Positions 433 through 31,868 of a stretch of 33,672 nt of DNA are shown in pieces; the first letter of the stretch is position 1; each line of letters opens with the position of its first letter. Source of the stretch: a virus; the IMG/VR virus record IMGVR_UViG_3300043395_002153, positions 1 through 33,672 of that record, one strand, 5' to 3'. The notes under the pieces were generated by a model that was given only the letters and a program-made list of their open reading frames with translations, had not been told where the DNA came from and made no database searches. The translations under genes and the position numbers were made by a program.

Positions 433-440
433 GAGGGTAT
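433..440 (-). promoter_or_regulatory. ATACCCTC element before the left-edge gene
   Basis: A perfect copy of the recurrent element (minus strand ATACCCTC) lies in the 41-base gap between the collagen fibre stop and the GTG start at 409, with 23 bases to the start. Function inferred: late promoter core or leader control site. Confidence 0.65.
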
Positions 441-450
441 CGAGCGGGCC

Positions 451-2487
451 TCAACGCTCATACAGCACCGACACCTTGCCGGAATCAAAGGTGTTGGCAC
501 CAGCCACCGTCGTCAACCGCAATCGATCCAGGACACCGCTCAACTGCACCGAGCCGCCACTGGCCATCGAACCGCCGGTATCCGAGCGGGCCAGGGTTGA
601 ACCGGCCACCCATAGGCCAGCATCCAGCTGGATCAGCGTCACCTGGAAATGACGCACTGCTGCACCAGCTGTCAGACCATCGATGGCAAAGCCCTGGCCC
701 GTATAACCTGCGTCTCCCACATTAGCGGGATGTCCCAGATAGTTCGACACCTGGAAGCCGCTGGATGTTCCCAGCTGCACAATCACTAAATGCGTTCCAT
801 TGGTGCTTACGGAAGAACCGATCAATGTCAACCGTTTGACGCCAGGTGGAATGTTCAGGAAGTCAACATTCACAAGACCTGTTGCCGTCTTGACGCTATC
901 AAGTGTCAAGTCGGATTTCGCCGATTGCACCCAGGCCGTCGTCGCCAGCTGCCCATCATTGGAATCCGCAGCAGGGAGAGGAGCCGTCGGCTTACCCGTG
1001 AAGGCAGGGCTGGCTAAATCCGCCTTCACGGCCAGCTGCTCCAACGTCGCCTTCTTGTCCAGCTCCACCTTCAGGCCAGCCGGATGCACCGCACGGCTGC
1101 CATCAATGCCGGCCGTCGTCTCCGCCGCAGTGGCCAGCTCCACCACACCCAGAGCCACTTCACTGGCCTGGGCCACGGCCGGTGTCGCCGCCAGCAGCTG
1201 CGCGGCATCCACCAGGCGGCCTGCTGTTCCAGCGGCGATCGCCGCCGCATCCGCCAGCTGCACCACACCCATCGCTGAGGTGGTGGCGACCGCCACCTGA
1301 ATGCGCTTGGAGCCGTCGATCATCACTGGCAGCACCGGCGTCAACGCCTGCGCATCGGCACCAGCAGGACCGGCGGGACCTTGCGGACCCATCGGACCCT
1401 GCGGACCTTCCAGTCCCTGGCTGCCGGTATTGCCGATCGGGCCCTGCGGACCCATCGGGCCCTGTGGCCCTGCAGGGCCGATGTCCCCCTTGGCCCCTGC
1501 AGGGCCCTGCACGCCGGCCGGGCCCGTCTGGCCCTGTGGCCCCGCCGGGCCGATGTCCCCCTTGGCCCCTGCAGGGCCCGTCGCTCCTGCGCTCCCTGCA
1601 GGGCCCGTCGCTCCTGTGGCACCGGTCGGGCCTGCAGGGCCCTGCGGGCCGCGAATCGGACCCACATTCACCCAGCCAGTGCCGCTCCACACCAGGCCAT
1701 CGCCAGCAGCAACGGCACCGCCGGGGAAGCCAGTGATCACGCCGCCGGCGATATACAGATCCCCCGCCACCTGCGCAGGCGCGCTCCACGCGCCAGCCGG
1801 CAACGTGCCGACCACCCGCGTTGCAGCGCCCATTGGCCCGGTCGGGCCCGCCTGGCCGGTGTCACCCTTCGGGCCAGTTGGACCTGCCGGGCCCTGCAAT
1901 CCCTGAGGACCCGCTGGGCCTGCAGGGCCTGCCGCGCCCGTGTCCCCTTTAGGGCCGGCCGGGCCCTGCACGCCTTGCACGCCCTGCGGCCCTGCGACCC
2001 CAGCACTGCCGGCCACACCGGCCGGGCCCTGCGGACCCTCGGGGCCCTCGGGCCCCTCCGGGCCTTCCATCCCATCAGCGCCAGCAGGGCCGCGCATCGC
2101 GCCGATATTCACCCACGCCGCGCCATCCCACACCAACCCATCACCTTCTGCCACCACACCACCGGGGAAGCCAGTGATGACACCCGCCGCGATGAACAGA
2201 TCACCTGGCTGCGGTGTCGCTGTCGGCGGTGTCCAGGCCCCGGCGGCAGCGGTGCCGTGAATGATCAGCGCTGGACCGATCGGACCCTGCGGTCCCCTCG
2301 GGCCTGGCACGCCATCCAATCCCGCAGGGCCCTGGGGACCGGCGGGGCCGGCGGGGCCGGCAACCAACGCCGGCGGTTTCGTCCGCCAGCTGTTCGTTGC
2401 TGCCTCATAGATGTAGGCACCGCCATTGGAGGGATCAATCCACTCGGTGCCATTGGCCGGAGAATCCGGGAAATTGATCGCCACCAA
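451..2487 (-). CDS. Collagen-like tail fibre protein, 678 aa
   Basis: Predicted tail fibre that reaches towards the host surface. Residues 1-42 form a small cap ([10 protein letters not shown], then [12 protein letters not shown]) common in cyanophage fibres and likely to anchor to the virion. Gly-X-Y collagen tracts at about 44-73, 133-221 and 280-378 should form triple helices. Two copies of a 55-60 residue globular insert (about 77-132 and 224-279, both with GVITGFPGG and GDGLVW) interrupt them. Residues 400-470 carry [14 protein letters not shown]-type repeats, 490-520 an [13 protein letters not shown] fibre motif, and about 545-678 a beta-rich C-terminal domain, the likely receptor-binding tip. 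The start is TTG, 18 bases after a TACCCTC element. Trimer formation is inferred from the collagen repeats. Confidence 0.9.
1354..2358 (-). repeat. Gly-X-Y collagen repeat tracts in the fibre gene
   Basis: Three runs of the nine-base Gly-X-Y periodicity (about 2269-2358, 1825-2091 and 1354-1650) are separated by two copies of one globular insert. KGD tripeptides recur at residues 180, 207, 309 and 333. Near-identical GC-rich blocks make the region prone to unequal recombination and to assembly error. Confidence 0.85.
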
Positions 2488-2505
2488 CGCTCAAGCCGCT
2501 GGCGG

Positions 2506-2513
2506 GAGGGTAG
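2506..2513 (-). promoter_or_regulatory. CTACCCTC element before the collagen fibre gene
   Basis: One-base variant of the recurrent element in the 55-base gap between two genes, 18 bases before the TTG start at 2487. Its presence supports that non-ATG start. Confidence 0.5.
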
Positions 2514-4084: not shown

Positions 4085-5401
4085 TCAAGCCCTCTCGCCG
4101 ATCAGATACATCTTGAGGCCAGCGCCGGCAAAGGTGGCACCAACCTGCGTGAAGTCCACTTCGATCAAAGCATCAGCCGCCAGAGCCGTTGTGCTCAACG
4201 TGGCGGCAGTGCTCACCCTGCTGCCGTCAGCAATCTGCGGTGGTGTTGCAAACACCGACGTTCCGTTGACGCGCAGGCCAAAAGCGATGGCCGCACCTGT
4301 CGGTGGCTTCACGGCGTTGAACTTCACTTCCTTCAACTTCATCGCTACCGGCAGGTGATCACTGATCACAGCCGTTCCTGTCTTGATCGCTGTCGCCTCA
4401 TCGCCCAGCGCCCAGCCAAGAACCAGCAGCTGCGTCGGCACTGCCGCTTTCAACTGCGCTGCATCCACCACCAACCCGGCGGTGCCAGCCGTGATCGCTG
4501 CTGCATCCGCCAGTTGCACCACGCCCTTGGCCGCTGTCGTGGCATCAGGCGGCACATGGGCTTTCAGTTGCGCGGCATCCACCACCAACCCGGCTGTCCC
4601 AGCCGTGATCGCTGCGGCATCCGCCAGCTGGACAACGCCTTTGGCGGCGCTCGTCGCATCCGCCACCACCGCATCAGGGCCCAGCTGCTGCCAGCTCGCC
4701 CCATCAAACACATAGACATCGCCAACCGCGGCAGCGGCCTTCACCCCAGGCCAATCCGCGGCGGGCGCTCCGGCCTTGCCCACCTGCAGCAGATCGCCCG
4801 CCGCCGGGGTATAACCCGCGGCCCGGGCCACTGTCGTGTCGATCGCTCCCTGCCACGCCGTCCGCGGACTCGCCGCAGTCCCCGCTCCAGCCCAGGCCAG
4901 CCCATCCCACACCATCAGCTCGTGCAGGCTGACGGCATTGCCGGCCAGGCCCGTCCAGCCCGCCGCGGCCGTTCCCGCTGCGCTGGCGATCCAGGTGTCA
5001 CCCACCGCAGGAGTGGCCGGCACCGAACCCGCAGCTGTCGGATCAACGCGGCCCTTGTAGGTGAGTGCATTTGCCACCGATGGCGGCACTGCCGCAGGGC
5101 TTGCATCCACCCACGCGCTCACCAGCGGCGTGCCACTGCTGTAGCGGAGGAACAACCGCGCACTGGTGGTGTCCCACCACAGATCACCATCCTTCGCCAC
5201 CACCGGCGCCGTCGCCGCCACGGTCACGCCGGCCATCGGCTTGAACTCGATCAGCGCATTGTCATCACCTTTGATGATCAGCGCTGGATCTTCATGGTTG
5301 TAATTGATCGCCAGATCGCCATAGCTCATGTCCGCAGGATTGGGCCGCCGGCCCTTCACGCTGCTGCGGTACAGCCGAACATCGATCGGTGCCTTGGCCA
5401 T
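4085..5401 (-). CDS. Modular tail/fibre protein, 438 aa
   Basis: Starts at ATG 5401. Residues 1-60 hold the cap SYGDLAINYNHEDPALIIK, shared with the gene at the left edge. A DGDLWWDTTSARLFLRY segment (about 71-87) belongs to a GxLWxDT module that recurs in other tail proteins here. The middle is Ala/Gly-rich with similar GDTWIASAAG and GDVYVFDG pieces, followed by two tandem 38-residue repeats ([14 protein letters not shown]) and a beta-rich C-terminal domain of about 110 residues. Likely a fibre or adhesin joined to the virion through its N-terminus. It is first in a group with the propeller and the 150-residue protein, with three-base gaps. Confidence 0.8.
   Translation of the reverse strand: MAKAPIDVRLYRSSVKGRRPNPADMSYGDLAINYNHEDPALIIKGDDNALIEFKPMAGVTVAATAPVVAKDGDLWWDTTSARLFLRYSSGTPLVSAWVDASPAAVPPSVANALTYKGRVDPTAAGSVPATPAVGDTWIASAAGTAAAGWTGLAGNAVSLHELMVWDGLAWAGAGTAASPRTAWQGAIDTTVARAAGYTPAAGDLLQVGKAGAPAADWPGVKAAAAVGDVYVFDGASWQQLGPDAVVADATSAAKGVVQLADAAAITAGTAGLVVDAAQLKAHVPPDATTAAKGVVQLADAAAITAGTAGLVVDAAQLKAAVPTQLLVLGWALGDEATAIKTGTAVISDHLPVAMKLKEVKFNAVKPPTGAAIAFGLRVNGTSVFATPPQIADGSRVSTAATLSTTALAADALIEVDFTQVGATFAGAGLKMYLIGERA
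4433..4660 (-). repeat. Two tandem 38-codon repeats ([14 protein letters not shown] module)
   Basis: Two adjacent 114-base units encode nearly identical peptides starting DATSAAKG and DATTAAKG. A related unit is in the collagen fibre (about 1216-1290). The same module in different tail genes suggests spread by recombination within the tail cluster. Confidence 0.8.
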
Positions 5402-5423
5402 GACGAGAAAAATCCCTGCGGAA

Positions 5424-5441
5424 CACCCCTAACAAGGGGTG
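5424..5441. other. Seven-base-pair hairpin in the leader of the 438-aa gene
   Basis: CACCCCT, a four-base loop and AGGGGTG form a perfect stem. On the minus strand it lies between the ATACCCTG element (5446-5453) and the ATG at 5401, giving the longest element-to-start gap seen (44 bases). No U-tract follows directly, so it is not a clear terminator; a leader structure is possible. Confidence 0.5.
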
Positions 5442-5445
5442 CCCA

Positions 5446-5453
5446 CAGGGTAT
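5446..5453 (-). promoter_or_regulatory. ATACCCTG element before the 438-aa gene
   Basis: Perfect copy of the recurrent element in the 59-base gap, eight bases after the stop of the 423-residue gene and 44 bases before ATG 5401; a hairpin sits in between. Confidence 0.62.
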
Positions 5454-5460: not shown

Positions 5461-6732
5461 TCAAAATTCCCCCAGATCCACCACTGTCACGAGCTTGTAC
5501 GCGCCGGCGGCGCCATCCGCCACCACGCTCGAGTCGCGCACCAGCAGCCCCTTCATCTTGTCCGGTGCCACCACGGACACGGCGCTGTCGCTCACGTCAC
5601 CACAACCGTGCAAGGAGAGCGGCGTTGCGATGAGGCCGGAGCTGATGACGTGCCACTGGACGGTGCCGCCCACATAGACAATGTGATCATTGGCTGCCAG
5701 GGGCACATTGACCGGCGCCGCATCACCTGTCGGGGTACCGGCCTTGGACACCACGAAGAAATCACCTTCCTTCAGGCCTGTGCCGGCGGAGAGCTTGGCG
5801 CCTGCCGTGAGGTTGCCGCGGCCATTCGCCGCTGCGGTGGCGGTGGGAGTGGCGATGCCACTGGCGCTGGCGTCATAGGTGCCAAGCAGTGTCGAGCCCG
5901 TCACCAGCCCGGCGATCTGATCAGCGAAGGCCCGCATCTGCTTGGCCGTCACCACACCGCCTGCGTTGTTGGTGGTGGCGGTGGGATCACCCGTCTCGGT
6001 GATGTCGGTGTCGCGGGCAAGCACCACCGCACCTTTCACGGCGCCGGCGCCAGCGGCGTCAGGAGCGGTGGCATCCGGCACCCCGGCGCCGGTCTTGATG
6101 AAGCTGCTGCCATCGAAGACGTAGGTGCCGGCATCGGCGCCAGGGCCGGCGACGACGAGCATGTCGCCGGACTTCAGATCCGCTTTGGTGGTGACACCGC
6201 TGCCGGTGACGGCCGCCAGCACCACCACCGCCTTGGCGGTGATGTCAGCGCCAGCGGCAGCGGTGATCGCCGCCTGGGTGGCGGAGAAGACCTTGGGGGA
6301 GGCAGCGGGGGGCACCCAGGCAATGCCGTTGTGCATCAGCAGCTGCGGCGTGCCGCTGGCCGGCACCAGGACGAACAGATCGCCCTTGGCGGCATTGGCA
6401 ACTGGCGGCAATGCGGTGCCTGAGTTCAGTCCTTCTCCTTTGAGATCAAAGATCTCATAGCCTTCGTTCTGGTAGATCGAACCAGCGGCGGCACCAGTGG
6501 CGGGCCGTGCGGTGGCCACCTTGGCCGGAACAGTGACGTTGGTGACACCAAAGATTGTCTGAGCGCCGGCGGCGACTGCCTTGCCGTGCACCAGGACATC
6601 ATCACCAGCGCAGCCGACGAGCAGCCATTTGTTAGCGAGGTTGAAGGCGATCTGTCCTGGCTTGAGACCATCGGGCAGCTTCGTTGCCGTGGGTGTGCGC
6701 AGGTGCTGCAGCGCGATGTTCGAGAGGGCCAT
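5461..6732 (-). CDS. Modular tail/structural protein, 423 aa
   Basis: ATG start at 6732, preceded 26 bases upstream by ATACCCTC. The N-terminus contains LKPGQIAFNLANKWLLVG, comparable to the short caps of the other fibre-like proteins. The rest is Ala/Gly/Thr/Val-rich, predicted beta-structured, with repeated GDLFVL-, GDMLVV- and GDFFVV-type strands at roughly 130, 205 and 330 and a degenerate GAVVLARDTD element related to the GVVQLADA repeats. No enzymatic motif was seen. By composition and place among adhesin genes it is probably a tail fibre or baseplate-type protein. Confidence 0.75.
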   Translation of the reverse strand: MALSNIALQHLRTPTATKLPDGLKPGQIAFNLANKWLLVGCAGDDVLVHGKAVAAGAQTIFGVTNVTVPAKVATARPATGAAAGSIYQNEGYEIFDLKGEGLNSGTALPPVANAAKGDLFVLVPASGTPQLLMHNGIAWVPPAASPKVFSATQAAITAAAGADITAKAVVVLAAVTGSGVTTKADLKSGDMLVVAGPGADAGTYVFDGSSFIKTGAGVPDATAPDAAGAGAVKGAVVLARDTDITETGDPTATTNNAGGVVTAKQMRAFADQIAGLVTGSTLLGTYDASASGIATPTATAAANGRGNLTAGAKLSAGTGLKEGDFFVVSKAGTPTGDAAPVNVPLAANDHIVYVGGTVQWHVISSGLIATPLSLHGCGDVSDSAVSVVAPDKMKGLLVRDSSVVADGAAGAYKLVTVVDLGEF

Positions 6733-6758: not shown

Positions 6759-6766
6759 GAGGGTAT
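6759..6766 (-). promoter_or_regulatory. ATACCCTC element before the 423-aa gene
   Basis: Perfect copy in the 41-base gap between the 694-residue gene (stop at 6774) and ATG 6732; 26 bases to the start. Confidence 0.65.
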
Positions 6767-6773: not shown

Positions 6774-8858
6774 TTAGAAGGAGCCTTCGTCGAGGCCGAT
6801 GATCTGGTTGGTGGTGTTGACGAGCACGCCAGGGCCAGGGAGGAGGAAGGCGCCAGCGGGTGTGGCCCCGCCACCCGTGGCCCCGCCACCTGTGGCGGCG
6901 TTAGAGGGCGGGACGCGGCTGCCGCCGGCATCGATCACCAGTGTCTGGTTGTCCGCCATCGTCACGACAGTGCCGCCAGCACCGCGGATCCGCAGCGTCG
7001 TGTCGGTGCCATCGCTGTGGGTGACGCGGATGGCGGCGGTGAGCGGATCGCTGACGAAGTCGATCGCCTCGAGCGCCGTCACGCACAAGCCACCCACACC
7101 ACCACCACCGGTACCGCCTCCGGGGGTGGTGGTGCTGCCGCGGAGGTTGTCGGGCGATGCCGACACCCATTGCGTCGAGGTCCCGTCATCAAACAGCACC
7201 ATCAGCTCGCCGGTGACGGTGTTCCACCACAGCTCACCAGGCCGTGCCGGCGGTGGCGTGGCGCCGACATGCGCGCGGGCCGGCAGTGCCGCATCACGCA
7301 GCAACCCACTGCGCAGCAGCAGTTGCGTGCTGGACAGTGCTGTGCCGACCGCCACGCCAGATGATCCCGCCGGCTTGGTCGTCAGCTGACCTGCTGCAGT
7401 GCTGGAGACGTAGTAATCACGCCCGGCCGTCAGGCCTGCCACGAGGGCGTGCGGCTCGGCGTTGTCGATCACGCCTGCCCATTGCGCTTCCCGCAGGGTG
7501 ATCACACCTTCAATCCCTGCCGCCACCTGGCCGCCGGGGAGGGCATCTTCAAGGGCGATCGCCACGGCGCTGCCCATCGCCGTCGAAGGCCCTGCCAGCT
7601 GCCAGTTCGCCGCGCCATGCACCAGCGGTTGACCAGCCCTGATCGACTGGCCGCTGCCATTGATGCCGGCAAAGCGCTGGACATCATTGATCGCCAGCCA
7701 GCGGCCTCCTTGCCGCACCGACACCCGGCTGGTGCTGCTGTCCAGCCAGAGATCACCATCCAGCGCCGTCGATGGCGCAGTGGCGGCGGTGGAGAAGCGA
7801 TCGTGCCACTTCAGTTCACCGGCATCCACCACCAGAGAAGTGCCCTGGCTGCCAAGCGACAACCGATCCACCTGCCCGCCCTTGAAGGTGATCAGATCAC
7901 CAGGCGCCAGGGCGGTGCGCAGTTCCGCCAACCGGTTCAGCACCGGGTTGTTCACATACGCCGTCTTCCACTGCAGCGCTGCTTCATCCCAGAAGCCGAT
8001 CGTCTCGGCGCCACCGGCTGGATTGCACCAGATCGCTTCTGTCGCACCCGGCGGCCTGCCGCCACCAGTGGGGATTGGATCCGTCGCACTCACCCCCGCC
8101 GGCCAGGGTGGCTGAAGGCCCATCGACACCAGATCGATGAAAGCGCCAACACCACTACCGCCATAGGCCAGCACCCGACCACCTGTCGCGCCAGCAGGGG
8201 GGGCGATGCTGCGGACGCCGCCGCCGCCATCCGCCACCAGCACCGCGCCATTGCCTGCCGCGGTCAACGTCTGCAGCAACGCCGCCACGCCACCGCCAAG
8301 CACCGAGGCCCACACCGTTCCGGTGAACACCTTCAGTTCACCGGCGGTGGTGTCCATCCACAACGCACCAGCCAGTGGCGTCGTCACCGGTGCAACTGCG
8401 CCATAGGCCAGGATCGGGCTGTAGGCCAGCGTCCGCATCGCCAGGCCCGTCACCGGACTGGTTTCCGGCAGGCCCGCGTGGCTTGTCGGCACCTGGATCA
8501 CACCCGGCACCGCCGCCGGTTGATCCAGAGGCATCCAGCCACCGGTGGAACCAACGATCAGTCGGCCCGGCTCATACGGACCTACCGCACCCAACAGTGC
8601 GGTGGCGTTGACGCCATCCATCCAGCTGGTGGGACGGCCGTCCTGCACCAACCCCAGCACCGCCAGGCCTCGGATGAGGCGATCAAGGCTCTGCCCCCAG
8701 TTGCCGCCAACAACCTGCGGCAACGCCGGCGTGACGCCGTTGAAGCCGACAGGCCCTGCGAACAGGACCGAACCCGCCAGGTGCAGCGTGTCGCCAGTCT
8801 CAAGCTGGCGGTTGACGCCACGGGCGCCATCGAAAACAAGCGGCTTGAGCAGCGCCAT
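6774..8858 (-). CDS. Large modular tail protein, 694 aa
   Basis: ATG at 8858 overlaps the upstream stop as TGATG, so translation is probably coupled to the 179-residue gene. The protein is a chain of beta-rich modules: three GxLWxDT-type hairpins (AGALWMDTTAGELKVF, DGDLWLDSSTSRVSV, PGELWWNTVTGELMVL), a GRDYYVS/GQLTTKPAGS/VGTAL module also present in the 179-residue protein, and a Gly/Thr-rich linker (PGGGTGGGGVGG) before the C-terminal domain. No catalytic residues were recognised. Likely a long fibre, tail-needle or baseplate component; the modules suggest it grew by duplication. Confidence 0.78.
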   Translation of the reverse strand: MALLKPLVFDGARGVNRQLETGDTLHLAGSVLFAGPVGFNGVTPALPQVVGGNWGQSLDRLIRGLAVLGLVQDGRPTSWMDGVNATALLGAVGPYEPGRLIVGSTGGWMPLDQPAAVPGVIQVPTSHAGLPETSPVTGLAMRTLAYSPILAYGAVAPVTTPLAGALWMDTTAGELKVFTGTVWASVLGGGVAALLQTLTAAGNGAVLVADGGGGVRSIAPPAGATGGRVLAYGGSGVGAFIDLVSMGLQPPWPAGVSATDPIPTGGGRPPGATEAIWCNPAGGAETIGFWDEAALQWKTAYVNNPVLNRLAELRTALAPGDLITFKGGQVDRLSLGSQGTSLVVDAGELKWHDRFSTAATAPSTALDGDLWLDSSTSRVSVRQGGRWLAINDVQRFAGINGSGQSIRAGQPLVHGAANWQLAGPSTAMGSAVAIALEDALPGGQVAAGIEGVITLREAQWAGVIDNAEPHALVAGLTAGRDYYVSSTAAGQLTTKPAGSSGVAVGTALSSTQLLLRSGLLRDAALPARAHVGATPPPARPGELWWNTVTGELMVLFDDGTSTQWVSASPDNLRGSTTTPGGGTGGGGVGGLCVTALEAIDFVSDPLTAAIRVTHSDGTDTTLRIRGAGGTVVTMADNQTLVIDAGGSRVPPSNAATGGGATGGGATPAGAFLLPGPGVLVNTTNQIIGLDEGSF

Positions 8859-9397
8859 CAGAGGTGCACCATCAGGTTGATCTCAACATCCAGCGTCTGC
8901 TGGCTCACCGCCTGCCCAACGCAGACCACCGTCGAACCAACGGCCGCAGGGCAGGTTGTCGTCAACATCCCTGCCGCCATGTCGGAGAGGTAGTACCGCT
9001 TGTTCACCTCAAGCGTTGCGGTGCCCGTCACCGGCAGCCAATCCGACAGGCTCATCTGCCCGTCGGTGATCACCCCAATGATCTGTCCTGTCGTCGCATC
9101 TGCCGCGGCCAGACCCGCCACCTCATAGGGATGGACCGTGGCCGGTACCACCGCATCCTTGGCGATCGCCAGATCAATCGTTCCCGCACCACTGAAGAAC
9201 ACCGCCATCCCGGCCCTGGCCATCGTCCCCGCCCCCGCAGGAGTGAAGGCCCCTGTCGCCTGGCCGGCACCAGGTGCACCGGCAGGGCCTGCACCGGCAC
9301 TCGACAGCACCCAGGTCACCGGGCCACCGCCTGCCCCATCCGGGTCGTATTCGGCGTAGGTCCGCCCAAATCGCGTGATCGTCCGTGCCGTCGCCAA
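8858..9397 (-). CDS. Small tail/structural protein, 179 aa
   Basis: The start is TTG at 9397, 21 bases after the ATACCCTG element, with a GGGGC purine run before it; no in-frame ATG lies upstream of the conserved part. The first third is Gly/Ala/Pro-rich. Residues 110-179 carry NKRYYLSDMAAGMLTTT, then VVCVGQAVS and LDVEINLMV, the same beta module as in the 694-residue protein. The stop overlaps the next ATG. Probably a subunit working with the 694-residue protein, perhaps as an adaptor or short fibre. The family is not recognised. Confidence 0.72.
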   Translation of the reverse strand: MATARTITRFGRTYAEYDPDGAGGGPVTWVLSSAGAGPAGAPGAGQATGAFTPAGAGTMARAGMAVFFSGAGTIDLAIAKDAVVPATVHPYEVAGLAAADATTGQIIGVITDGQMSLSDWLPVTGTATLEVNKRYYLSDMAAGMLTTTCPAAVGSTVVCVGQAVSQQTLDVEINLMVHL

Positions 9398-9418: not shown

Positions 9419-9426
9419 CAGGGTAT
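9419..9426 (-). promoter_or_regulatory. ATACCCTG element before the 179-aa gene
   Basis: Perfect copy in the 89-base gap between genes; 21 bases to the TTG at 9397, supporting this unusual start. Confidence 0.65.
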
Positions 9427-9486: not shown

Positions 9487-10161
9487 CTAATAAGTTCCCA
9501 AATTCAAGTGATTCGTCACACGATAAGCACCGCGGGCTACCAGATTACTGCGATCATCTCGCACCAAAACGCCCATCTGATGTTCGGCTGGAATATCACT
9601 CACAATCGGATCATCCGTCACATTGCTCAGTTCACCCAACGCCTTGTTCCCTGCGCTGCCACCGGCACCGCCGCCATTCATCTGATACCAGCCTGCTTCA
9701 TTGGCTGATGCCACTTCATCGATATACACAAACGTCACGCCCTGCCTGGTGTCAAACCACACCGCGCCGCTCACCTTCCGCGCCGGTTCATTCGGACCGA
9801 TGTGCACAAACGCTTCCGCGCCATTGGTCTGATGCCATTCGCCGGCCTGGCTGATGAACAGCCGGCCCTGGCGGGTGTCGAACCAGAAGCTGCCATCACC
9901 CGGCGTCATCCCCGGGTTGTAGCTCCCAGTCGCACTGTTCCATCCCGGCGGCTGGCTGCCGATCACGCTCGTCGCCGGGGGCGGCACCACGCCGCTGAGC
10001 ACCGTGCCCAGATCCCACAACGCCCTGGTGATCCCCTCGAAATTCGCCTGGTACTGGTTCGGCAAAACAGGACTCCGCATCAGGATCAGCCGCTCGATCG
10101 CCCTCAGGATCGAGGTGTAGCCGTAGCCGCTCTGGGTGACTTCCGCAAACGACAGGGCCAT
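9487..10161 (-). CDS. Structural/tail protein with two FWFDTRQG modules, 224 aa
   Basis: ATG at 10161 overlaps the upstream stop (TGATG). The N-terminal 60 residues look helical (FAEVTQSGYGYTSILRAIERL), unlike its beta-rich neighbours, and may dock onto the tail. Two near-identical beta hairpins follow (GDGSFWFDTRQGRLFI and SGAVWFDTRQGVTFVY), from the same GxLWxDT family seen elsewhere in this cluster. The C-terminal part (GELSNVTDDP, then GVLVRDDRSN) resembles short adhesin ends. No enzyme motif was seen. Likely a fibre-attachment or baseplate protein. Confidence 0.75.
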   Translation of the reverse strand: MALSFAEVTQSGYGYTSILRAIERLILMRSPVLPNQYQANFEGITRALWDLGTVLSGVVPPPATSVIGSQPPGWNSATGSYNPGMTPGDGSFWFDTRQGRLFISQAGEWHQTNGAEAFVHIGPNEPARKVSGAVWFDTRQGVTFVYIDEVASANEAGWYQMNGGGAGGSAGNKALGELSNVTDDPIVSDIPAEHQMGVLVRDDRSNLVARGAYRVTNHLNLGTY

Positions 10162-10562
10162 CAGAGGGACCGCAGCGACAGATCACCAGAGAAGAAACAG
10201 GGCGGGTTGCCGGCGGTGATCGTGCAGTCCGGCGACACATCCCCGGCCAGCAGCAGGGTTCCGCCGGTGGCGGCATCCCACAGCCCGAACGACTTCACCG
10301 TCTGCGTGGCGGTATGAACGCCAAGCAGGATCGCCCGGCCGTTCAGCCGTTCACGGCCGCCGCCTGGTGCATTGCCGATCGGCCCGAAGTCCGCCGCAGC
10401 AACCCGCACCCGATCGCCGCCAGCCCAGCCCTTGATCTCATTGCCCGTGGCCGGGATGTCATCGCTGTGCAGCGCCAGCCACAGCTGCGCCGGAGGGGCG
10501 GGGAAGGCGGTGCCCAGCAACCAGTTCAGGACTGCATCTTCCGTCGCTTGTGCCAGTGCCAT
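10161..10562 (-). CDS. Small phage structural protein of the LLG-T-PAxLWLAL type, 133 aa
   Basis: The frame is open further upstream (to 10727), but the start is set at ATG 10562: it lies 22 bases after an ATACTCTG element and gives the expected MALAQATEDAVLNWLLG opening. The protein resembles a widespread small phage tail-associated family whose members begin with a helix ending in LLG-T, then P-A-x-L-[YW]-[VL]-A-L, and carry a central G(L/I)WDA-type strand (here FGLWDAATGGTLLL). Members are often annotated as tail fibre proteins; the biochemical role is unknown. It is coupled to the 224-residue gene by a TGATG overlap. Confidence 0.75.
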   Translation of the reverse strand: MALAQATEDAVLNWLLGTAFPAPPAQLWLALHSDDIPATGNEIKGWAGGDRVRVAAADFGPIGNAPGGGRERLNGRAILLGVHTATQTVKSFGLWDAATGGTLLLAGDVSPDCTITAGNPPCFFSGDLSLRSL

Positions 10563-10584: not shown

Positions 10585-10592
10585 CAGAGTAT
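10585..10592 (-). promoter_or_regulatory. ATACTCTG element before the 133-aa gene
   Basis: One-base variant (C to T) of the element, four bases after the stop of the 306-residue gene and 22 bases before ATG 10562. It favours the short start over the longer open frame. Confidence 0.5.
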
Positions 10593-13543: not shown

Positions 13544-14671
<1,128 letters not shown>

Positions 14672-19876: not shown

Positions 19877-19879
19877 CTG
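19872..19879 (+). promoter_or_regulatory. ATACCCTG element before the plus-strand LAGLIDADG gene
   Basis: A perfect copy in plus orientation, 28 bases before the only plus-strand gene. That the element turns with the gene argues that it acts on the downstream gene and is not a random feature of minus-strand composition. Confidence 0.65.
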
Positions 19880-22742: not shown

Positions 22743-23504
22743 TCAGTAGGCGTTCATGGCCTGGACGGTGGAGGCATAGGCCACTGGATCGGCCTGCTGC
22801 TGGCCCTTGGCCATCAGGTGATACGCCAGGCCTGCCGCGGCCGCAGTGCCAAGGCCGGTGGCTGCCAGGCCCCAGCGGGGCATGCCGCCCAGCACCGGGA
22901 TGTTTCGCAGCTCCTCCGCACTGGCACTCCACCAGTCGTCGGCTTCCCCTTTCACCGCCGGCGAGGCTTCTGGATTGGCAGCAGGGGATTGCGGTGGAGC
23001 TTCCGGCGGCTTGCCGATCGGTGCTGGATCGGGGGAAGGGGAGAAGCCGAAATACGGGCCCAGTTCAGCCCGCATCGCCTCATCCTTCTTCATCCGATCC
23101 ATCAGCCTCTCGACCGATTCCATGCGCTGGAAGCGGGCTTGCGAGCTGACGTTCTGCTGCGCCTGCAGCTGAGCCAGTAGGGCCTCATCATCCAGGCCGC
23201 CGCCGGCCTCGCGCAGTTGCGCCAGGCTTGCGGCCACCTGTTCATCCGTGGGTTTCTGCCCTTTCGCCAGCCCGCGTTGCACCAGGCCGGCGGCGACATC
23301 ATTGAGGGTTGCCTTCTTGGTGGCCCACACCACATGATCGCTCTTGTCATCGGGACTTGGCACCATCACGGTGTCGTTCCCGAAGGCGGCTGTCGTTACC
23401 CAGCGATCGCCAATGGTGCTGTCGCCGACGCCGTACCTCTCCAGCAACTTCCGCGCCGCGTGTTCACGCTGCGCGGGTGTCTTGGCTGCAGCCGTCCGCG
23501 CCAT
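22743..23504 (-). CDS. Unknown protein with C-terminal membrane-like segment, 253 aa
   Basis: ATG 23504 has a GGAGGG ribosome site overlapping the scaffold gene stop, so the two are coupled. Residues 1-50 are basic (AKTPAQREHAARKLLERYG), 85-150 helical with Gln/Asp/Arg (RFQRMESVERLMDRMKKDEAM), 155-185 a Pro-rich linker, and about 208-230 a Gly/Ala hydrophobic stretch (WGLAATGLGTAAAAGLAYHLM). One membrane-inserting helix at the end again suggests an internal protein delivered with DNA. No known family. Confidence 0.7.
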   Translation of the reverse strand: MARTAAAKTPAQREHAARKLLERYGVGDSTIGDRWVTTAAFGNDTVMVPSPDDKSDHVVWATKKATLNDVAAGLVQRGLAKGQKPTDEQVAASLAQLREAGGGLDDEALLAQLQAQQNVSSQARFQRMESVERLMDRMKKDEAMRAELGPYFGFSPSPDPAPIGKPPEAPPQSPAANPEASPAVKGEADDWWSASAEELRNIPVLGGMPRWGLAATGLGTAAAAGLAYHLMAKGQQQADPVAYASTVQAMNAY

Positions 23505-23507
23505 GGC

Positions 23508-24623
23508 TCAACCCTCCATGAACAGCATCTTGGTGCGGATGCTCTCGGGATCCGCCTGCGCCAGCACCTTCCAGGCGTCCTGGGGTGCGACATCCATCAC
23601 CTGGGAGAACTGACTCCAGACGTTGCCGTTGCCGGCCATGCGGGGTGCACCGCCGGGCTGGGGCATCGACATCTGCGGCCGCTGGAAGGACGGCTGGGCC
23701 ACGGCATCCATGCGGGGGTTGCCGGCGGCAGGCATCAGCGGACCGTCCTGCTGGATCATCCCCTCAGCCAGCGCACGCTGCGCTTGCTCAGCCGGAGTCT
23801 CGACGGGGTAGGGCCCGTTGGGCCCGAAGAACTCCTTGGTGTAATCCGCCAGCCGATCCGGATCGGTGAGGATCGCCAGCATCGCTTCGCGATCCGCAGT
23901 GGCCGCGGCCAGCACATCCTGCACTTGCGTGATGTACTGATGCTGCTGCTGGATGGCCGCAGATTGCTGCTGCTGATGGCCCAGGGATTCAAGCAGGGCG
24001 TCTTCCACCTGGCAGGAATAGGTGTTGAGCTTGAACGGTGCCTCAGGCCCGAAGTGGCTCAGAACCTCCAGGGATTCGTTGGAGATGTTGTCGAGGTAGT
24101 TGTCACCGCGCTGAGGAGCGGCGGCCTGCTGGGCGGCGGCTTGCAGCCCTGCTGCTTGCTGTTGAGCTGCGGCCTGGTACTGCTGCTGCAGCGTCTGATT
24201 CGCCGCCTGCGCTGCCAGGTACTGAACGTCCGCCGCCGACAATCCCTGCGTTGGTTGGGGCGAGTAAGTCGGGGCTGCCGAGCCCACCTGCGGGGCCTGG
24301 ACCCAGTTGGCCACCTGACCCTGCGTCAGGCCGGAGGGGGTCGAAATTGAGGGAGCCGCCCACCCCTGGTAGGCCTGTTGAGGCGTCGGTGCGCCGACCA
24401 GCTGATTGAACGCCTGTTGCCATTGCGCCGGACTGGCTTGCGCCGAATCCCAGCTGCCCGGTGTAGGAGCCGCCGCCGGCTGTCCAGGCATCGGAGAGGT
24501 AACCGGCGAAGGCATCGCGGCGGCGGGCGGCGCGACGTTGCTCCAGCTCGGTTGGCTCGCCACGGGAGGCGCGTAGGCGATCGGCGTCTGAGAGGGTTGG
24601 GGGCTGACTTGCTGGGTCGACAT
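23508..24623 (-). CDS. Putative scaffolding protein, overlapping the portal gene, 371 aa
   Basis: ATG 24623 lies inside the portal gene, whose frame continues to 24103, so about 520 bases are open in two frames. Residues 1-172 are Pro/Gln/Ala-rich with AQWQQAFNQLVG and ALQ-type repeats (YLAAQAANQTLQQQYQAA). Past the overlap the protein is more regular: GDNYLDNISNESLEVLSHFG, helical LLESLGHQQQQ, and FGPNGPYPVETPAEQAQRAL. Order (portal, this gene, small proteins, capsid) and Gln/Ala helices fit a scaffold. A later start would shorten the overlap, but no clear ribosome site favours one. Confidence 0.74.
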   Translation of the reverse strand: MSTQQVSPQPSQTPIAYAPPVASQPSWSNVAPPAAAMPSPVTSPMPGQPAAAPTPGSWDSAQASPAQWQQAFNQLVGAPTPQQAYQGWAAPSISTPSGLTQGQVANWVQAPQVGSAAPTYSPQPTQGLSAADVQYLAAQAANQTLQQQYQAAAQQQAAGLQAAAQQAAAPQRGDNYLDNISNESLEVLSHFGPEAPFKLNTYSCQVEDALLESLGHQQQQSAAIQQQHQYITQVQDVLAAATADREAMLAILTDPDRLADYTKEFFGPNGPYPVETPAEQAQRALAEGMIQQDGPLMPAAGNPRMDAVAQPSFQRPQMSMPQPGGAPRMAGNGNVWSQFSQVMDVAPQDAWKVLAQADPESIRTKMLFMEG

Positions 24624-26403
24624 CTTGGTACTTGCCAGAGTAACTGAGTTCTTGCCTCAGGAAAGTGAGGGTTTTGTAGATGTAGGGAACAAGATCCAGG
24701 TTTGGATCTGCCGCGAGGGGGAGATCCGGCTCCTGTGGATGGGGAACCTGGAACATGCCTCGCAGCATGTCCATGAATACCCCGGCCTGTCTTGCTGTAC
24801 TCTCTACAACCCGGAAGGGAAAACCGCTCAACATTGCTGAGCGTTCCTCGGGCGTCTTCTGCGGGAACAGGTATTGCAGGGCCTCGACGCTGCTAACGCC
24901 CAGTTCCTGCAGGTTCCGACAGACGATTGAATTTTGGAGGATTTCCTGAGGAGAGTCCTCAAAGATTTCCCCCATCCACCGCCAGAGTATGGTTGTCGAT
25001 CCATCGGGGATCAGGCCCACCACCTCGGGTGGCACTTCCCCCGTCTCCTTCAGTTGGCTGACGGCCGCGCCGATCTGCTGTCGCCAGGCGCTGAGAGCTT
25101 GCTCGTATTGCTGCTCGATGACGGCGAACTCCTCCGGCGGCAGGCCCGTGTCCTCGATCAGCGGCGGCTCCGGCTTGACGATCCCCAGCGCCTGGGAGAG
25201 CGATTCGCGGAACAGCGTCTCCTCGTGGTCGACCATCAGCGAGAACAGCTTGCAGAAGCCGTACTCGAACAGATCGCGCGCCTTGCGCTTGGCGGTTGCC
25301 GCCACCCGGCCGTAGAGCGTGCGGACCTCATAGGCCGTTGCACCGCTGTTGATCGAGAGATCATCGACACCGCCGAGAGCGGTGCGGATCGTCTCCTGAT
25401 ACATCTGGCTGTAGGCCGTCAGATCGCCGCCGACGGAATCGGGCGTGATGTAGCCGACCCGGTCCGCTGCCTCCACATTGGCGATGATGCGCGGCACCCG
25501 CATCCCGCCGCCGAAACCGGCCATCGCCGTGTCGGAGGTGCGAGTGGCGGCACGATTGAGGCCGACGAAACCGCTCTGGCTGCTGATCGTCGCCTTGCCG
25601 CCGCCATCGCCATCAGGCTCGAGCAGATCGTGCTTGGGCCGGCTGGAGACGAGCGTCGGGTTCCCGAAGAAGTTGAGGTTGGCCTTGATGGCCTTCACCA
25701 TCTTGTCGTGCTGGAGGATGTGCGTCGCCAGCCAGTCGAAGTCGCCGTGGCCGCTGCCGGCCTGCAGTCCGCGGTTGTTGAACACCTCCACCGCCGGGAT
25801 GAAGCCGAGGGTGTTGAGCAGCGTCTGCGTCTGGCCGCCCAACACCATCTCGGTGCCGAAATCCGGCCGCTGCGGAGTGATCACTTGCTCGATCCGATCG
25901 GCGAACACCTTGAGGCGAATCCAGCGCAGCTCGCTGTTGGAGGTGCTGCCAGTAAAACGCGAGGCCTCGTTCAGCTGCTCGGTGCCGAGAGAGGATCCGA
26001 ATCCACGCGGCGGCCGCACCAGGAAGCTGTAGATGATCTGCAGCTCCTCAAGCTGCCCGTCCTCGTCGTAGTAGGTGCGGAACTGATCCTTGGAGAAGTA
26101 ATGAATGCGATAGAGATCTTTGCTGGGCCTGAAGTAAAGGAGGCCGCGGCCATCGATCAGCAGGCTATCGACGATCGCCTCAAGCCGGCCGGGCAGCTCG
26201 TTGTAGTCGACGACGCGGCGCAGGAACTCACGGCGCTGCGCGAACGAATCCTGCTTGGCGAAGAACTCAATCCCCTGCCGGAGGGTGAACAGCCGCATCT
26301 GCGCCAGATGGGCCGCCACCACCATGGTGTCGACACCGTCATTGGCCGTCCGCGAGCGCGCTGCCTCGAGGATCGCCTGAAAGCGTTGCGCGTCGACGGA
26401 CAT
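24103..26403 (-). CDS. Portal protein, 766 aa
   Basis: ATG 26403, 20 bases after an ATACCCTC element. It lies downstream of the terminase with the size and order of a portal. Residues 1-100 are helical; 100-400 carry the mixed core (LEAIVDSLLIDGRGLLYF, YRIHYFSKDQFRTYYDEDG), an HDKMVKAIKANLNFF helix, and GGVDDLSINSGATAYEV. A long helical part follows (FEYGFCKLFSLMVDHEETLF). The last 173 residues share DNA with the scaffold gene in another frame: first helical and basic (LEQRRAARRRDAF), then Gly/Ser/Arg-rich. Twelve such subunits would normally form the packaging vertex. The family is assigned from order and shape; I saw no single diagnostic motif. Confidence 0.82.
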   Translation of the reverse strand: MSVDAQRFQAILEAARSRTANDGVDTMVVAAHLAQMRLFTLRQGIEFFAKQDSFAQRREFLRRVVDYNELPGRLEAIVDSLLIDGRGLLYFRPSKDLYRIHYFSKDQFRTYYDEDGQLEELQIIYSFLVRPPRGFGSSLGTEQLNEASRFTGSTSNSELRWIRLKVFADRIEQVITPQRPDFGTEMVLGGQTQTLLNTLGFIPAVEVFNNRGLQAGSGHGDFDWLATHILQHDKMVKAIKANLNFFGNPTLVSSRPKHDLLEPDGDGGGKATISSQSGFVGLNRAATRTSDTAMAGFGGGMRVPRIIANVEAADRVGYITPDSVGGDLTAYSQMYQETIRTALGGVDDLSINSGATAYEVRTLYGRVAATAKRKARDLFEYGFCKLFSLMVDHEETLFRESLSQALGIVKPEPPLIEDTGLPPEEFAVIEQQYEQALSAWRQQIGAAVSQLKETGEVPPEVVGLIPDGSTTILWRWMGEIFEDSPQEILQNSIVCRNLQELGVSSVEALQYLFPQKTPEERSAMLSGFPFRVVESTARQAGVFMDMLRGMFQVPHPQEPDLPLAADPNLDLVPYIYKTLTFLRQELSYSGKYQDVDPASQPPTLSDADRLRASRGEPTELEQRRAARRRDAFAGYLSDAWTAGGGSYTGQLGFGASQSGAMATGVQSAGRRTDASTGLPGVGGSLNFDPLRPDAGSGGQLGPGPAGGLGSPDLLAPTNAGIVGGGRSVPGSAGGESDAAAAVPGRSSTASSRAASRRPAGRRSSAR

Positions 26404-26423: not shown

Positions 26424-26431
26424 GAGGGTAT
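26424..26431 (-). promoter_or_regulatory. ATACCCTC element before the portal gene
   Basis: Perfect copy in the 47-base gap, 20 bases before ATG 26403. It starts the longest unit, from portal through lysozyme. Confidence 0.65.
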
Positions 26432-26450: not shown

Positions 26451-26654
26451 TCAGTAGAGGCCGCGTTGATGCGCTTCCGTCAAGGTGCCGGCAGCGACAG
26501 AGCCGCCATCCAGGATCCGCAGCCCTTGCACAAACGGCCGTGCCTGAGCCGGGACGAGCATGCCGATGGCGCCAAGCCCAGGGAATGCGGAAGTGTCCTT
26601 GCGCTTCTGCAAGGCGTCCTGGATCGCGCGATTGGCGATGTCAAACGGATTCAC
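26451..26654 (-). CDS. Small unknown protein between terminase and portal, 67 aa
   Basis: The start is GTG 26654 (NPFDIANRAIQDALQK), 22 bases after a TTACCCTC element. The element and gaps on both sides support a real gene despite its size. The N-terminal helix is amphipathic; a hydrophobic Gly/Ala stretch (FPGLGAIGMLVPAQARPF) follows, then a short polar end. Position between terL and portal suggests a packaging or portal-associated part, but no family is recognised. Confidence 0.66.
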   Translation of the reverse strand: MNPFDIANRAIQDALQKRKDTSAFPGLGAIGMLVPAQARPFVQGLRILDGGSVAAGTLTEAHQRGLY

Positions 26655-26676: not shown

Positions 26677-26684
26677 GAGGGTAA
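26677..26684 (-). promoter_or_regulatory. TTACCCTC element before the 67-aa gene
   Basis: One-base variant, three bases after the terL stop and 22 bases before GTG 26654. Confidence 0.5.
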
Positions 26685-26687
26685 CGA

Positions 26688-28241
26688 TCAGTCGTCACGC
26701 CATTCGCCCCACGCCGGCTGCAGGCGGCCCGGGCCCACCAGGCCCTTGACTGCCAGCAGGAAGCTGTCGGGGCAGTCATCGTGATCCGTGGCGCCGTAGT
26801 TCAGCAGCTCCTGCCAGTAGGGCTCCCAGTTGATCCAGCGATTCCAGATCACGCGGCCAGTCTGGAACAGGCCCAGCACGCCGCGGAAGCGGGAGAGCTT
26901 GTCACCCCGGTAGCCGGTGACGCCACGCAGGACGAGGTTGTGGAGCGTGCGCTTGTCGTGCAGGATCTCCTTGGCATCGGCCTGCATCGACTGCTGGTAG
27001 CTGATCGCCTCGATGTTGATCGTCACTGGCACATCGGTGGGGAACCAGTCGATGGTGCCGTCCGGCTTCTCGTCGCCTTCCACCAGCAGGCCCCAGTCCG
27101 CCAGCAGCTCGCAGAGGGCATCGATCTTCTCGAGGTTGCCCATGGAGCGCAGGCGACGGAAGTCGATCAGCTCCACCTTGTCGCCATTGATCCCGGCGAG
27201 CGTCATCACCGTCCAGTCGTTGCGCTCCTTGAGGCCGCTGCTCAAGTCGATGCCAACGCAGAGGCCGTCATACTCACTGCTGAGATCACCAAGTTTCAGC
27301 CAATCTTCTGGAAAATCGATCTCGGATCGCGAGACCGGTTGGTTCATGAACTGGAATGAGAATGCGATCATGTCTTCAGATCGCAGTTTCTTTAGATGCT
27401 CTAGTGTGTAGAACTCTGGCCAGTAAGAATGCTCGATTCCATTGTCGTCAGTGACAATCGCCTGCTGAGTGATGACGCGCCAACCGTTTTTCTCGCAAAA
27501 AGTGGTAGCGAAAATGTCAACCGTCGAGAAGCGAGTGCCAAGCGCGATGCAGCGCCCGCCTTCCAGCAGGGTGGGCTGCACCACCTCCTGCCAGTTGGTG
27601 ATCAACTTGCGGCGGATCTCCGGGTTCTGGATCGACTCTGACGACTTGACGACGTCATCCAGCACGATCAGCTGCGAGCGGCGGCTGGTGATCGAACCCG
27701 ACAGGCCCTGGCCCACAAGGGTGTAGGGATCGTCGCCGGCCACCTCGATCTGCGCGTGATCCATGTCGATCGCCCACAGCTCATCCGACTGGCGGGCCTT
27801 GGACAGCCGCACCATCGGGAACACCTCCTGGTAGGCGCGGGAGGAGATGATCGCCTTGATCGTGTGGGACCTCGAGCGGGCGATGTCCAGGCTGTAGCCC
27901 AGGTAGAGGAGCCGCAGCATCTTGCGCTCCTGGGCGTGGATGCCAATCAGCCAAGCGACCAGCATCCCCAGCACGGTGGACTTGGCACTGCCCCGCGGAG
28001 CCAGAACGGCGGTGTTGGGGCCGCCGCAGCGCAGCAGCTGGGTGGTGTCCACCCCGGTGACGAACTCCTCGACCCAACGGCGGTGATGCTCGGCGTTCGG
28101 CTTGCCCAGCAGCTCACAGAAGGCGCTGAAGTCGGTGCGGGCCTGCCGGATCAGCGGCGGGACTTCCAGTTCGACCCGTGTCACGCCTGACGCCAAAGCC
28201 TTGGCGCGGCGCAGGTGAGCCATGGAAAGCTCAATACTCAT
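26688..28241 (-). CDS. terL: Terminase large subunit, 517 aa
   Basis: DNA-packaging motor. N-terminal ATPase: Walker A LAPRGSAKST (80-89), Walker B LIVLDD (191-196), and a coupling motif ALGTRFST (233-240). C-terminal RNase H-like nuclease: CVGIDLSSG (first Asp about 332, with NDWTV after it) and a late acidic cluster, GATDHDDCPDSF, near 490. All parts are intact. It moves DNA through the portal using ATP and cuts the concatemer. ATG 28241 overlaps the stop of the HNH gene as ATGA; a second ATG (MAHLRRAKAL) is six codons in. Confidence 0.95.
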   Translation of the reverse strand: MSIELSMAHLRRAKALASGVTRVELEVPPLIRQARTDFSAFCELLGKPNAEHHRRWVEEFVTGVDTTQLLRCGGPNTAVLAPRGSAKSTVLGMLVAWLIGIHAQERKMLRLLYLGYSLDIARSRSHTIKAIISSRAYQEVFPMVRLSKARQSDELWAIDMDHAQIEVAGDDPYTLVGQGLSGSITSRRSQLIVLDDVVKSSESIQNPEIRRKLITNWQEVVQPTLLEGGRCIALGTRFSTVDIFATTFCEKNGWRVITQQAIVTDDNGIEHSYWPEFYTLEHLKKLRSEDMIAFSFQFMNQPVSRSEIDFPEDWLKLGDLSSEYDGLCVGIDLSSGLKERNDWTVMTLAGINGDKVELIDFRRLRSMGNLEKIDALCELLADWGLLVEGDEKPDGTIDWFPTDVPVTINIEAISYQQSMQADAKEILHDKRTLHNLVLRGVTGYRGDKLSRFRGVLGLFQTGRVIWNRWINWEPYWQELLNYGATDHDDCPDSFLLAVKGLVGPGRLQPAWGEWRDD

Positions 28242-29101
28242 CGCTGCTTTGCCAGTCGAGGCGCGAGTTGGCCTGCGCGATGCAGCCTCCAGGCGTGCTG
28301 GTAGCTCAGCCCCAGAGAAGCAGAAGCCTCGACGAGCGGGATGCGCGAAGAGCCGAGATCGACGACCACTGTATTACGGCGATTGCGGCAGTTTTCACGA
28401 GGTGTAACCCAGTGACAGTTAAGAGGAGTGTAGTTCCCATCGTTATCTATTCGATCTATCTGGTGTGACGAGGTGGGCAAAAGACCCATGTCGCAAATGA
28501 AAGACTCAAAACTGGCGAGCCACTCTTCGCAAACCGAAATGCCGCGGCCGCCGTAATCGGGATACGACAAGTCTGAGGGATCATGGCATCTTTTGATCAT
28601 GTTGAGATAACGAGTGTATTCGCCACTGTGATGATCCGCGCGAGCGTGTCCGTGCTTAAGATTATTCCCCTCCCTCTTGATGCACCCGCAACTCCGAGAC
28701 AGGCCTCGGACCAGGCTCTTGACCAGCACTGGCTTTTCAACATCGCTTCCGCAGGTGCAGCGCACAAGCGTGGCTGGCTCGTAGTGAACGCCACTGCTAC
28801 AGGTTGCGCTGGGGTAGCCGATGTCGGGCGCTGGGCCGACAACTCGCCAGCGCCCGAAAGCCGAACCTGGAGCTGGCTGCGGCAACCGCTTGGATCCCTT
28901 GCGGGCCTGACGCTCCTCCTTCTTCCAGCAGCCGCAGCTCTTGGCATGGCGGCCAAGGTTGCTGGCGTTCACCAGCACACAAGCCCGGCCGCAATCGCAC
29001 TCACACCACCAGCGAGTCGTTTTCCCGGAGTTGGGTCCTCGCCTGAGGACCGTCAGCCTCCCGTGCCGCTCCCCAGTCCTGTCCCGTAAAGTCGATCCCA
29101 T
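28238..29101 (-). CDS. HNH endonuclease (free-standing homing type), 287 aa
   Basis: Residues 1-145 carry two zinc-type repeats, each with CxC(D/T)CG-like and SCGC ends (CECDCG 33-38 to SCGC 55-58; CTCG 115-118 to SCGC 137-140). Residues 160-243 form the phage HNH core (EYTRYLNMIKRCHD, YGGRGISVCEEW, then QIDRIDNDGNYTPLNCHW and NRRN). The C-terminal 40 residues (LVEASASLGLSYQHAWRL) resemble the helix-turn-helix that gives such enzymes sequence recognition. It probably nicks or cuts DNA and spreads into phages lacking it. It sits just before terL, with a lower-GC look. ATG 29101 matches family starts; an in-frame ATG 29254, 24 bases after an element, would add 51 residues. Confidence 0.82.
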   Translation of the reverse strand: MGSTLRDRTGERHGRLTVLRRGPNSGKTTRWWCECDCGRACVLVNASNLGRHAKSCGCWKKEERQARKGSKRLPQPAPGSAFGRWRVVGPAPDIGYPSATCSSGVHYEPATLVRCTCGSDVEKPVLVKSLVRGLSRSCGCIKREGNNLKHGHARADHHSGEYTRYLNMIKRCHDPSDLSYPDYGGRGISVCEEWLASFESFICDMGLLPTSSHQIDRIDNDGNYTPLNCHWVTPRENCRNRRNTVVVDLGSSRIPLVEASASLGLSYQHAWRLHRAGQLAPRLAKQR

Positions 29102-29312
29102 CAGCCTGCTGCTCAGGTTGGTCACGCCGCAGGTGTTCCACCACGCTGCGGCACCCCACAACTCTAGTTCACGCCCTAAGGGCCTGCGAACAATTCCAGT
29201 GGATGGCTGGGCGATTTGTTCAAAGGAGGCCTCGCGGGCGCGAGGAAAAATCATCAGAAAAAAATCGGGGCGTGCAGTGAGGGTATCTTGCGATTCGACA
29301 ACGGCACAGGCA
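29102..29312. other. 211-base gap before the HNH gene holding an element and an unused open frame
   Basis: The gap holds the ATACCCTC element (29279-29286), an ATG (29254) in frame with the HNH gene, and a short palindrome CCTCGC-GGGC-GCGAGG at 29229-29244. No separate gene was found. It may be the original leader of terL, now split from terL by the HNH insertion. Confidence 0.5.
29279..29286 (-). promoter_or_regulatory. ATACCCTC element before the HNH-terL unit
   Basis: Perfect copy, 26 bases after the stop of the 173-residue gene. The first in-frame ATG (29254) is 24 bases downstream, the normal distance, while the HNH family-type start (29101) is much farther. Confidence 0.62.
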
Positions 29313-31063: not shown

Positions 31064-31074
31064 GTGTGCTCTCC

Positions 31075-31836
31075 TTAAAGATTAGCGGCGGACTTGGCGA
31101 TAAGCGACAAGGCGCCGAGCACCTGAGTGCGGCGACTGTTGCGCTTGTCCAGCTCCATCTGCTGCTGGAAGTGCTGATCATCCAGCAGGAGCTTGGAGGC
31201 GTTTAGCTTATTGCTGGCCTCAAGCTGTTTGTTGCCTTGCTCGATCTGGGCAAGGCCAAGTGTGAGCTGATTGCTTGCAATGTCGCGATCAAGGCCAAGC
31301 TTGTCTCTGTTGATTTCGTTGCCTTCTTTTCTGGCGGCAGTGACCTCGCCAAGCTGAGCAGTTTGAAACGCGCCATTTTGTTGAATTTGCCTTATTTCCG
31401 CCAGAAGCCGCTGTCCGTTTTGCTCTAGCTCTGCCAACCGTAGTCCATGCTCTTTGTTCCACTGATCGTTTCTCGTTCGCTCCGCTTTGTCAGAGCGTTC
31501 TTGAAGAGTCGTTCTTTCGCCTTGATCTGTTAGTCGAGCCCTTTCGGCATTCTCATTATCCCAACTGTATTTACCGCCCTCTAGCTTTGTGCGATCATTG
31601 GTGCTAAGATTGAAGTAGACGTTATTGCCTTGCGCGTCTTTACCGACGCGTCGATACCCTCCGCGGCCTCCATCTGCTGATTGCACCCACTGAGGTGATG
31701 CGCCACTCGTGATGTCGCCGGTCCAGCGATCACGAGTAATGCCAACAGCCCCTTGATCGCCGGTTGTTGGCGGAGTATCGCTATTGCGATTCAGGGTTCC
31801 CGGCGTCAAAACGACCCACGGATTCGAGGACGGCAC
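31075..31836 (-). CDS. Coiled-coil virion-region protein, 253 aa
   Basis: GTG 31836 (PSSNPWVVLTPG), 24 bases after ATACCCTG. Residues 1-90 are polar with GGYRRVGKDAQGNNVYF. Residues 90-250 are a long, highly charged helix region, probably coiled coil (RTTLQERSDKAERTRNDQW, GNKQLEASNKLNASKLL), ending in a short hydrophobic stretch (VLGALSLIAKSAANL). The DNA is more A+T-rich than most of the block, hinting at separate origin. The stop is 11 bases before the start of the repeat protein. Probably an internal or scaffold-like protein of the ejection set. Confidence 0.74.
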   Translation of the reverse strand: MPSSNPWVVLTPGTLNRNSDTPPTTGDQGAVGITRDRWTGDITSGASPQWVQSADGGRGGYRRVGKDAQGNNVYFNLSTNDRTKLEGGKYSWDNENAERARLTDQGERTTLQERSDKAERTRNDQWNKEHGLRLAELEQNGQRLLAEIRQIQQNGAFQTAQLGEVTAARKEGNEINRDKLGLDRDIASNQLTLGLAQIEQGNKQLEASNKLNASKLLLDDQHFQQQMELDKRNSRRTQVLGALSLIAKSAANL

Positions 31837-31860
31837 GAATCACCAACTGCTGCTGAGCGA

Positions 31861-31868
31861 CAGGGTAT
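31861..31868 (-). promoter_or_regulatory. ATACCCTG element before the 253-aa gene
   Basis: Perfect copy, three bases after the stop of the 131-residue gene and 24 bases before GTG 31836. Confidence 0.65.

Follow-up and report, generated by a model that had tools for sequence, protein, structure and literature searches.

What is the short sequence ATACCCT(C/G) that precedes gene after gene in IMG/VR virus record IMGVR_UViG_3300043395_002153? The window analysed here is the whole stretch of 33,672 nucleotides (33.7 kb) of this record, which is about 64% G+C and has nearly all of its genes on the minus strand. A preliminary description had proposed that the element is a single-block late promoter core, with a leader control site as the alternative. 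Our analysis indicates that the element is very probably the -10 box of a promoter, and we consider it reasonably likely, taking the parts of the claim together, that these are phage-specific promoters consisting of a -10 only, that they serve mainly late genes, and that they are read by a phage-encoded sigma factor.

The window DNA has no match among 50,697 phage records. Its terminase (26688-28241) is 45% identical to that of Synechococcus phage S-EIV1 and its portal-like protein (24103-26403) is 47% identical to the S-EIV1 counterpart; judged by these identities, the window is a fragment with the structural genes of a cyanophage like S-EIV1. Terminases 76-92% identical to that of the window are encoded on 11 viral contigs, and we refer to the window together with these contigs, a group of freshwater cyanobacterial viruses, as the lineage. 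The largest of them (G007, 90 kb) is the sole relative of near-genome length, and a search of 84,980 species genomes of bacteria and archaea yielded no lineage terminase. Gene starts for the tallies below were taken from a simple purpose-made gene caller.

There are 11 perfect matches to ATACCCTS (S being C or G) in the window, compared with a mean of 0.53 and a maximum of 3 in dinucleotide-shuffled sequences. All ten copies named in the preliminary description are present, and the eleventh, which it had missed, lies antisense (31654-31661, plus strand). The five variants it listed are also real, each differing by one base (CTACCCT ending at 2513, 17243 and 17732, ATACTCT at 10592, and TTACCCT at 26684). 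The ten perfect copies and five variants precede start codons in the orientation of the gene, and the proposed closeness to the start is borne out, the start codon being 19-29 nt from the last T in 14 of these 15 cases and 45 nt from it in the remaining one. Nine of the 11 ATACCCT copies in the window are 15-32 nt ahead of the first open reading frame (ORF) of at least 100 aa, compared with 14% of random positions.

The enrichment extends to the relatives. One hundred ATACCCT copies were collected from the lineage, and 68 of 279 called genes (seven contigs including the window) have TACCCT no more than 45 nt upstream, compared with 1.08 expected from coding DNA. Genes without room for a leader mostly lack the element, as had been claimed for the window: ATACCCT precedes 42 of 72 genes starting 30-60 nt after the previous gene, compared with 3 of 80 that overlap the previous gene or start at most 10 nt after it. 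All close lineage members that were read have a TACCCT box ahead of the portal gene, though the flanking sequences have diverged, and at the same gene the more distant members L257 and L242 have ATACCCT and GTACCCT, respectively, which indicates that the core is TACCCT and that the preceding base (position -13) may vary. In G007 the structural genes are on one strand and the other carries mostly replication and nucleotide genes (AAA ATPase/KaiC-like domain, dCTP deaminase, ArdC-like); TACCCT is ahead of 19 of 48 genes on the first, late strand and 5 of 54 on the second, early strand, 'late' being inferred from gene content. In this same sense of late, the box serves late genes on either strand, as a -10 only.

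The full lineage motif, displayed as a logo, is TCC-ATACCCT-S-N4-Y-A-R, such that the element is not the single block first described but includes a conserved TCC upstream and a YAR (pyrimidine, A, purine) downstream at fixed spacing. Of 65 non-redundant lineage sites (flanks at most 50% identical), 35 have an A 7 nt past the last T (background 18%, p = 4e-11), and with this A as +1 there is a purine at +2 in 56 (p = 5e-9) and a pyrimidine at -1 in 48 (p = 2e-5). YAR keeps the same spacing from the element whatever the distance to the start codon, and this points to transcription rather than translation. Bacterial -10 boxes are usually 7 nt from the transcription start, and sigma70-type boxes are fixed at T-12, A-11 and T-7. 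In the lineage, variants with a change at any of these three positions show no enrichment ahead of genes, and positions -10 and -9 are somewhat tolerant of change (counts of 1-3). No -35 signal is seen in the lineage logo, the TGn extension is absent from it, with TCCA upstream instead, and the middle bases are CCC and not TATAAT-like, with TANAAT or TAGACT in relatives.

Related phages outside the lineage have upstream regions enriched for TAGAAT, TAGACT, TACAAT or TAAACT, and in S-EIV1 ATACCCT is not enriched and ordinary hexamers such as TAAACT are seen in its stead. At the orthologue of gene 16719-17213 the place of TACCCT is taken by TAGAAT in G010 and G013, TAGACT in G019, and TATAAT in S-EIV1 and G026, and at orthologues of the gene at 17258-17701 five marine relatives have TATAAT in the place of the box. 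That these hexamers occupy the position of TACCCT at some orthologous genes makes replacement of an ordinary -10 box the best reading of TACCCT. The YAR spacing, the lack of a -35, the canonical boxes of relatives and the late-strand bias in G007 all lend support to the late promoter core that had been proposed.

A candidate reader is encoded in G007 (39525-40415), a 296-aa sigma factor that matches TIGR02997 (3.6e-50; 171 bits, below the curated cut-off of 384.5) and is closest to cyanobacterial SigA-type models. Pfam regions 1.2, 2 and 4 are over cut-off and region 3 is just under (25.2 of 25.3). The -10-reading region 2.4 is YAVWWAQQSCQIAVA in G007, compared with YATWWIRQAITRAIA in the host and YAYWWIRQGITRAIA in a marine phage, and PTTV replaces PIHV (PVHL in the host) where the extended -10 is read. 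We take the changes to include R436Q, T440Q, R441I and H455T in E. coli sigma70 numbering, and they are presumably at or adjoining the known contact residues for -12 and the extended -10. SigA-like sigma genes are also present in nine marine S-EIV1-like contigs (G008, where the gene adjoins the portal gene, G009, G011, G012, G015-G018 and G021); region 2.4 in these marine relatives is host-like, and those examined for promoters keep TANAAT boxes. The window and the lineage members other than G007 are fragments, and absence of a sigma gene from them is uninformative.

We propose that TCC-A(-13)T(-12)A(-11)CCC T(-7) S(-6) N4 Y A(+1) R would form the -10 box of phage-specific promoters without a -35, and that TACCCT would substitute for the TANAAT-type -10 of related phages. 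Host core RNA polymerase would carry a sigma factor of cyanobacterial type that is encoded by the phage and altered in the residues that read the -10, open the box at T-12, A-11 and T-7, and begin transcription at the A, usually 13-23 nt ahead of the start codon; a separate start site would so serve many of the late genes or small operons. This model is preferred because of the divergent sigma factor in G007, the host-like marine sigma factors that accompany TANAAT boxes, and the failure to find a single-subunit RNA polymerase. The link between the G007 sigma factor and the ATACCCT box is plausible, as a correlation in one genome. We infer the RNA start at this A, the reading by this sigma factor, the presence of a sigma gene in the window's own genome, and the timing.

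Several observations weigh against this proposal. The sigma gene is known from one lineage member, G007, which is itself possibly incomplete, and two sigma scans of viral contigs identified no lineage copy beyond it. No sigma factor (PF04542) was detected in S-EIV1 or in several other relatives, so that the wider family does not need one to express late genes. The G007 protein retains region 4 though no -35 block is seen, and its contact residues are tentatively placed by E. coli sigma70 numbering. Five early-strand G007 genes carry TACCCT, two of these as ATACCCT, and many orthologous genes (e.g. portal) have no clear canonical box at the corresponding place in most relatives. The single lineage sigma gene and the relatives without a PF04542 match would also fit the same -10-only promoter being read by a host sigma factor, perhaps with a small phage protein helping, and the G007 sigma factor having another role. 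However, the central CCC is unlike the TANAAT boxes of relatives, and CCATACCCTS peaks at about 21 per Mb in a mixed set of 291 cyanobacterial genomes (probably not the true hosts), compared with 61-283 per Mb in eight lineage contigs longer than 13 kb; densities in short lineage fragments are 0 to 273 per Mb. Ten sites of the longer motif in three of the cyanobacterial genomes, again probably not true hosts, are mostly intragenic. We regard reading by a host sigma factor as unlikely.

An alternative that makes the element not a promoter but a leader RNA control site or an operator (acting in translation, anti-termination, or through a repressor or activator) would account for its position near starts and its strict orientation, and one copy does precede a conserved leader with possible hairpins. 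It does not readily explain a YAR at fixed spacing where codon distance varies, or the -10 boxes in the element's place in relatives, and the element is neither complementary to the 16S tail nor palindromic. The leader site that the preliminary description had allowed for is the less likely reading, since the transcript would begin downstream of the element, and we consider this whole class of explanation improbable.

The preliminary description had also likened the element to both T4 late and single-subunit RNA polymerase promoters, and the first likeness (sigma-type, -10 only) has held whereas the second has not. A T7-like promoter would be compatible with one strong short block, without a -35 and in many copies on one strand. 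PF00940 was sought and is absent from the window, G003, G006, G007 and S-EIV1, records that may be incomplete, with T7 as a positive control (1e-109); the gap between box and start is unconserved, and sigma-type -10 boxes are at the same place in relatives, leaving this option highly improbable. Chance or composition, which could point to just 11 window copies with one antisense, is refuted by the shuffles, the position and the lineage-wide conservation and has next to no probability.

A broader scenario is that one S-EIV1-like lineage rewired its late promoters, with the -10-reading residues of the sigma factor and the box changing together from TANAAT to the GC-rich TACCCT to give a private set unusable by the host sigma factor, and sister lineages keeping host-like boxes with host-like phage sigma factors or none; we judge the case for and against this to be about evenly balanced. 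A phage sigma factor with private late promoters is of a kind already known from other phages; new, as far as could be found, are a -10 box rich in G+C and the way in which box and sigma factor appear to have changed together between sister lineages. Among the open-access papers found on phage sigma factors, late promoters and S-EIV1, no title or abstract describes the motif (the original S-EIV1 paper was outside the search), and S-EIV1-like phages are widespread, with no published promoter account found in that literature. A GC-rich -10 without a -35 is unusual for sigma70-type recognition. If the proposal is correct, the motif would mark promoters and predict operons directly from metagenomes, and these closely related viruses would offer a natural example of a -10 box and its sigma factor changing together.

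The minus-strand ATACCCT boxes of the window are at 434-440 (gene 2-412; predicted +1 near 427 by spacing), 5447-5453 (45 nt before gene 4085-5401; predicted +1 near 5440), 6760-6766 (gene 5461-6732; predicted +1, in CAG, near 6753), 9420-9426 (gene 8858-9397, TTG start), 13564-13570 (gene 13023-13538, with the box inside the end of gene 13544-14671), 16708-16714 (gene 15350-16684), 26425-26431 (the portal-like gene), 29280-29286 (a conserved leader, then ORF 28238-29254 and the terminase), and 31862-31868 (gene 31075-31836, GTG start). CTACCCT variants precede gene 451-2487 (2507-2513), which encodes a collagen-like tail fibre, gene 16719-17213 (17237-17243) and gene 17258-17701 (17726-17732), the last downstream of a terminator-like hairpin; ATACTCT (10586-10592) precedes gene 10161-10562 and TTACCCT (26678-26684) the small ORF 26451-26654. 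The plus-strand box at 19872-19878 belongs, as had been noted, to a plus-strand gene (19908-20711), which codes for a LAGLIDADG endonuclease. The antisense copy (31654-31660, plus strand) is within gene 31075-31836 with no start downstream and is probably a chance occurrence.

The far copy at 5447-5453 is followed within the leader by a hairpin, CACCCCTTGTTAGGGGTG (5401-5453, minus strand). The LAGLIDADG endonuclease gene has its own ATACCCT copy, as does the minus-strand ORF 28238-29254, which is HNH/AP2-like by eye without a Pfam match, and mobile endonucleases appear to carry or capture the putative phage promoter. The leader of about 100 nt after ATACCCT ahead of the terminase region (29190-29290, minus strand) is conserved in G001, G002, G003, G004, L010 and L243 and contains a CCTCGCG/CGCGAGG hairpin and an ACAAAT/ATTTGT pairing; two pairs are changed on both sides, lending slight support to formation of an RNA structure, which could be an attenuator or small RNA. 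An Rfam search of the window gave no match. The major capsid gene is intact in the window (18619-19794) and split in G003 (23031-25294) and G007 (72576-74887), probably by an intron or other insertion, and in G007 an opposite-strand ORF lies inside.

Other phage sigma factors with a WWxQQ pattern were found, some on contigs sharing genes with S-EIV1, and the element is not enriched there. G321-G324 (L315-L321) contain a tandem pair of sigma-like genes (WWIQQ); a different block, GGCAAGCTAGGC, lies 18-26 nt ahead of some starts there and may be a further phage-sigma promoter. S-EIV1 (L025/L026) has a block around GCATGAC followed by TAAACTGCT ahead of three early-region genes (42996, 33586 and 30497, minus strand).

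In phage sigma cascades (e.g. Bacillus phage SPO1) a phage sigma factor redirects the host core polymerase to phage-specific promoters, and our proposal is similar in this respect but would involve a cyanobacterial-type sigma factor and a GC-rich, -10-only promoter. By sequence, the element resembles sigma70 -10 and extended -10 promoters in keeping T-12, A-11 and T-7 with a purine start 7 nt on, and in being matched in position, at some orthologous genes, by conventional -10 boxes, and departs from them in the central CCC, TCCA in place of TGn, and the lack of a -35. T4 late promoters have an 8-bp TATA box recognized by gp55 about one helical turn before the start and no -35 (PMC2988020). Shared with these are a short box at the -10 site without a -35, a candidate sigma-family reader, and use by late genes on either strand; unlike them, the box is TACCCT instead of a TATA box and GC-rich downstream, and the candidate G007 sigma factor, unlike gp55, has regions 1.2 to 4. 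The T4 machinery also includes gp33 and the clamp. The start-associated sequences of mycobacteriophage cluster K are 13-bp repeats immediately upstream of the start (PMC3203893), and are likewise short oriented repeats ahead of many gene starts, whereas the element described here has a start-like signal at a fixed spacing and a varying distance to the start codon.
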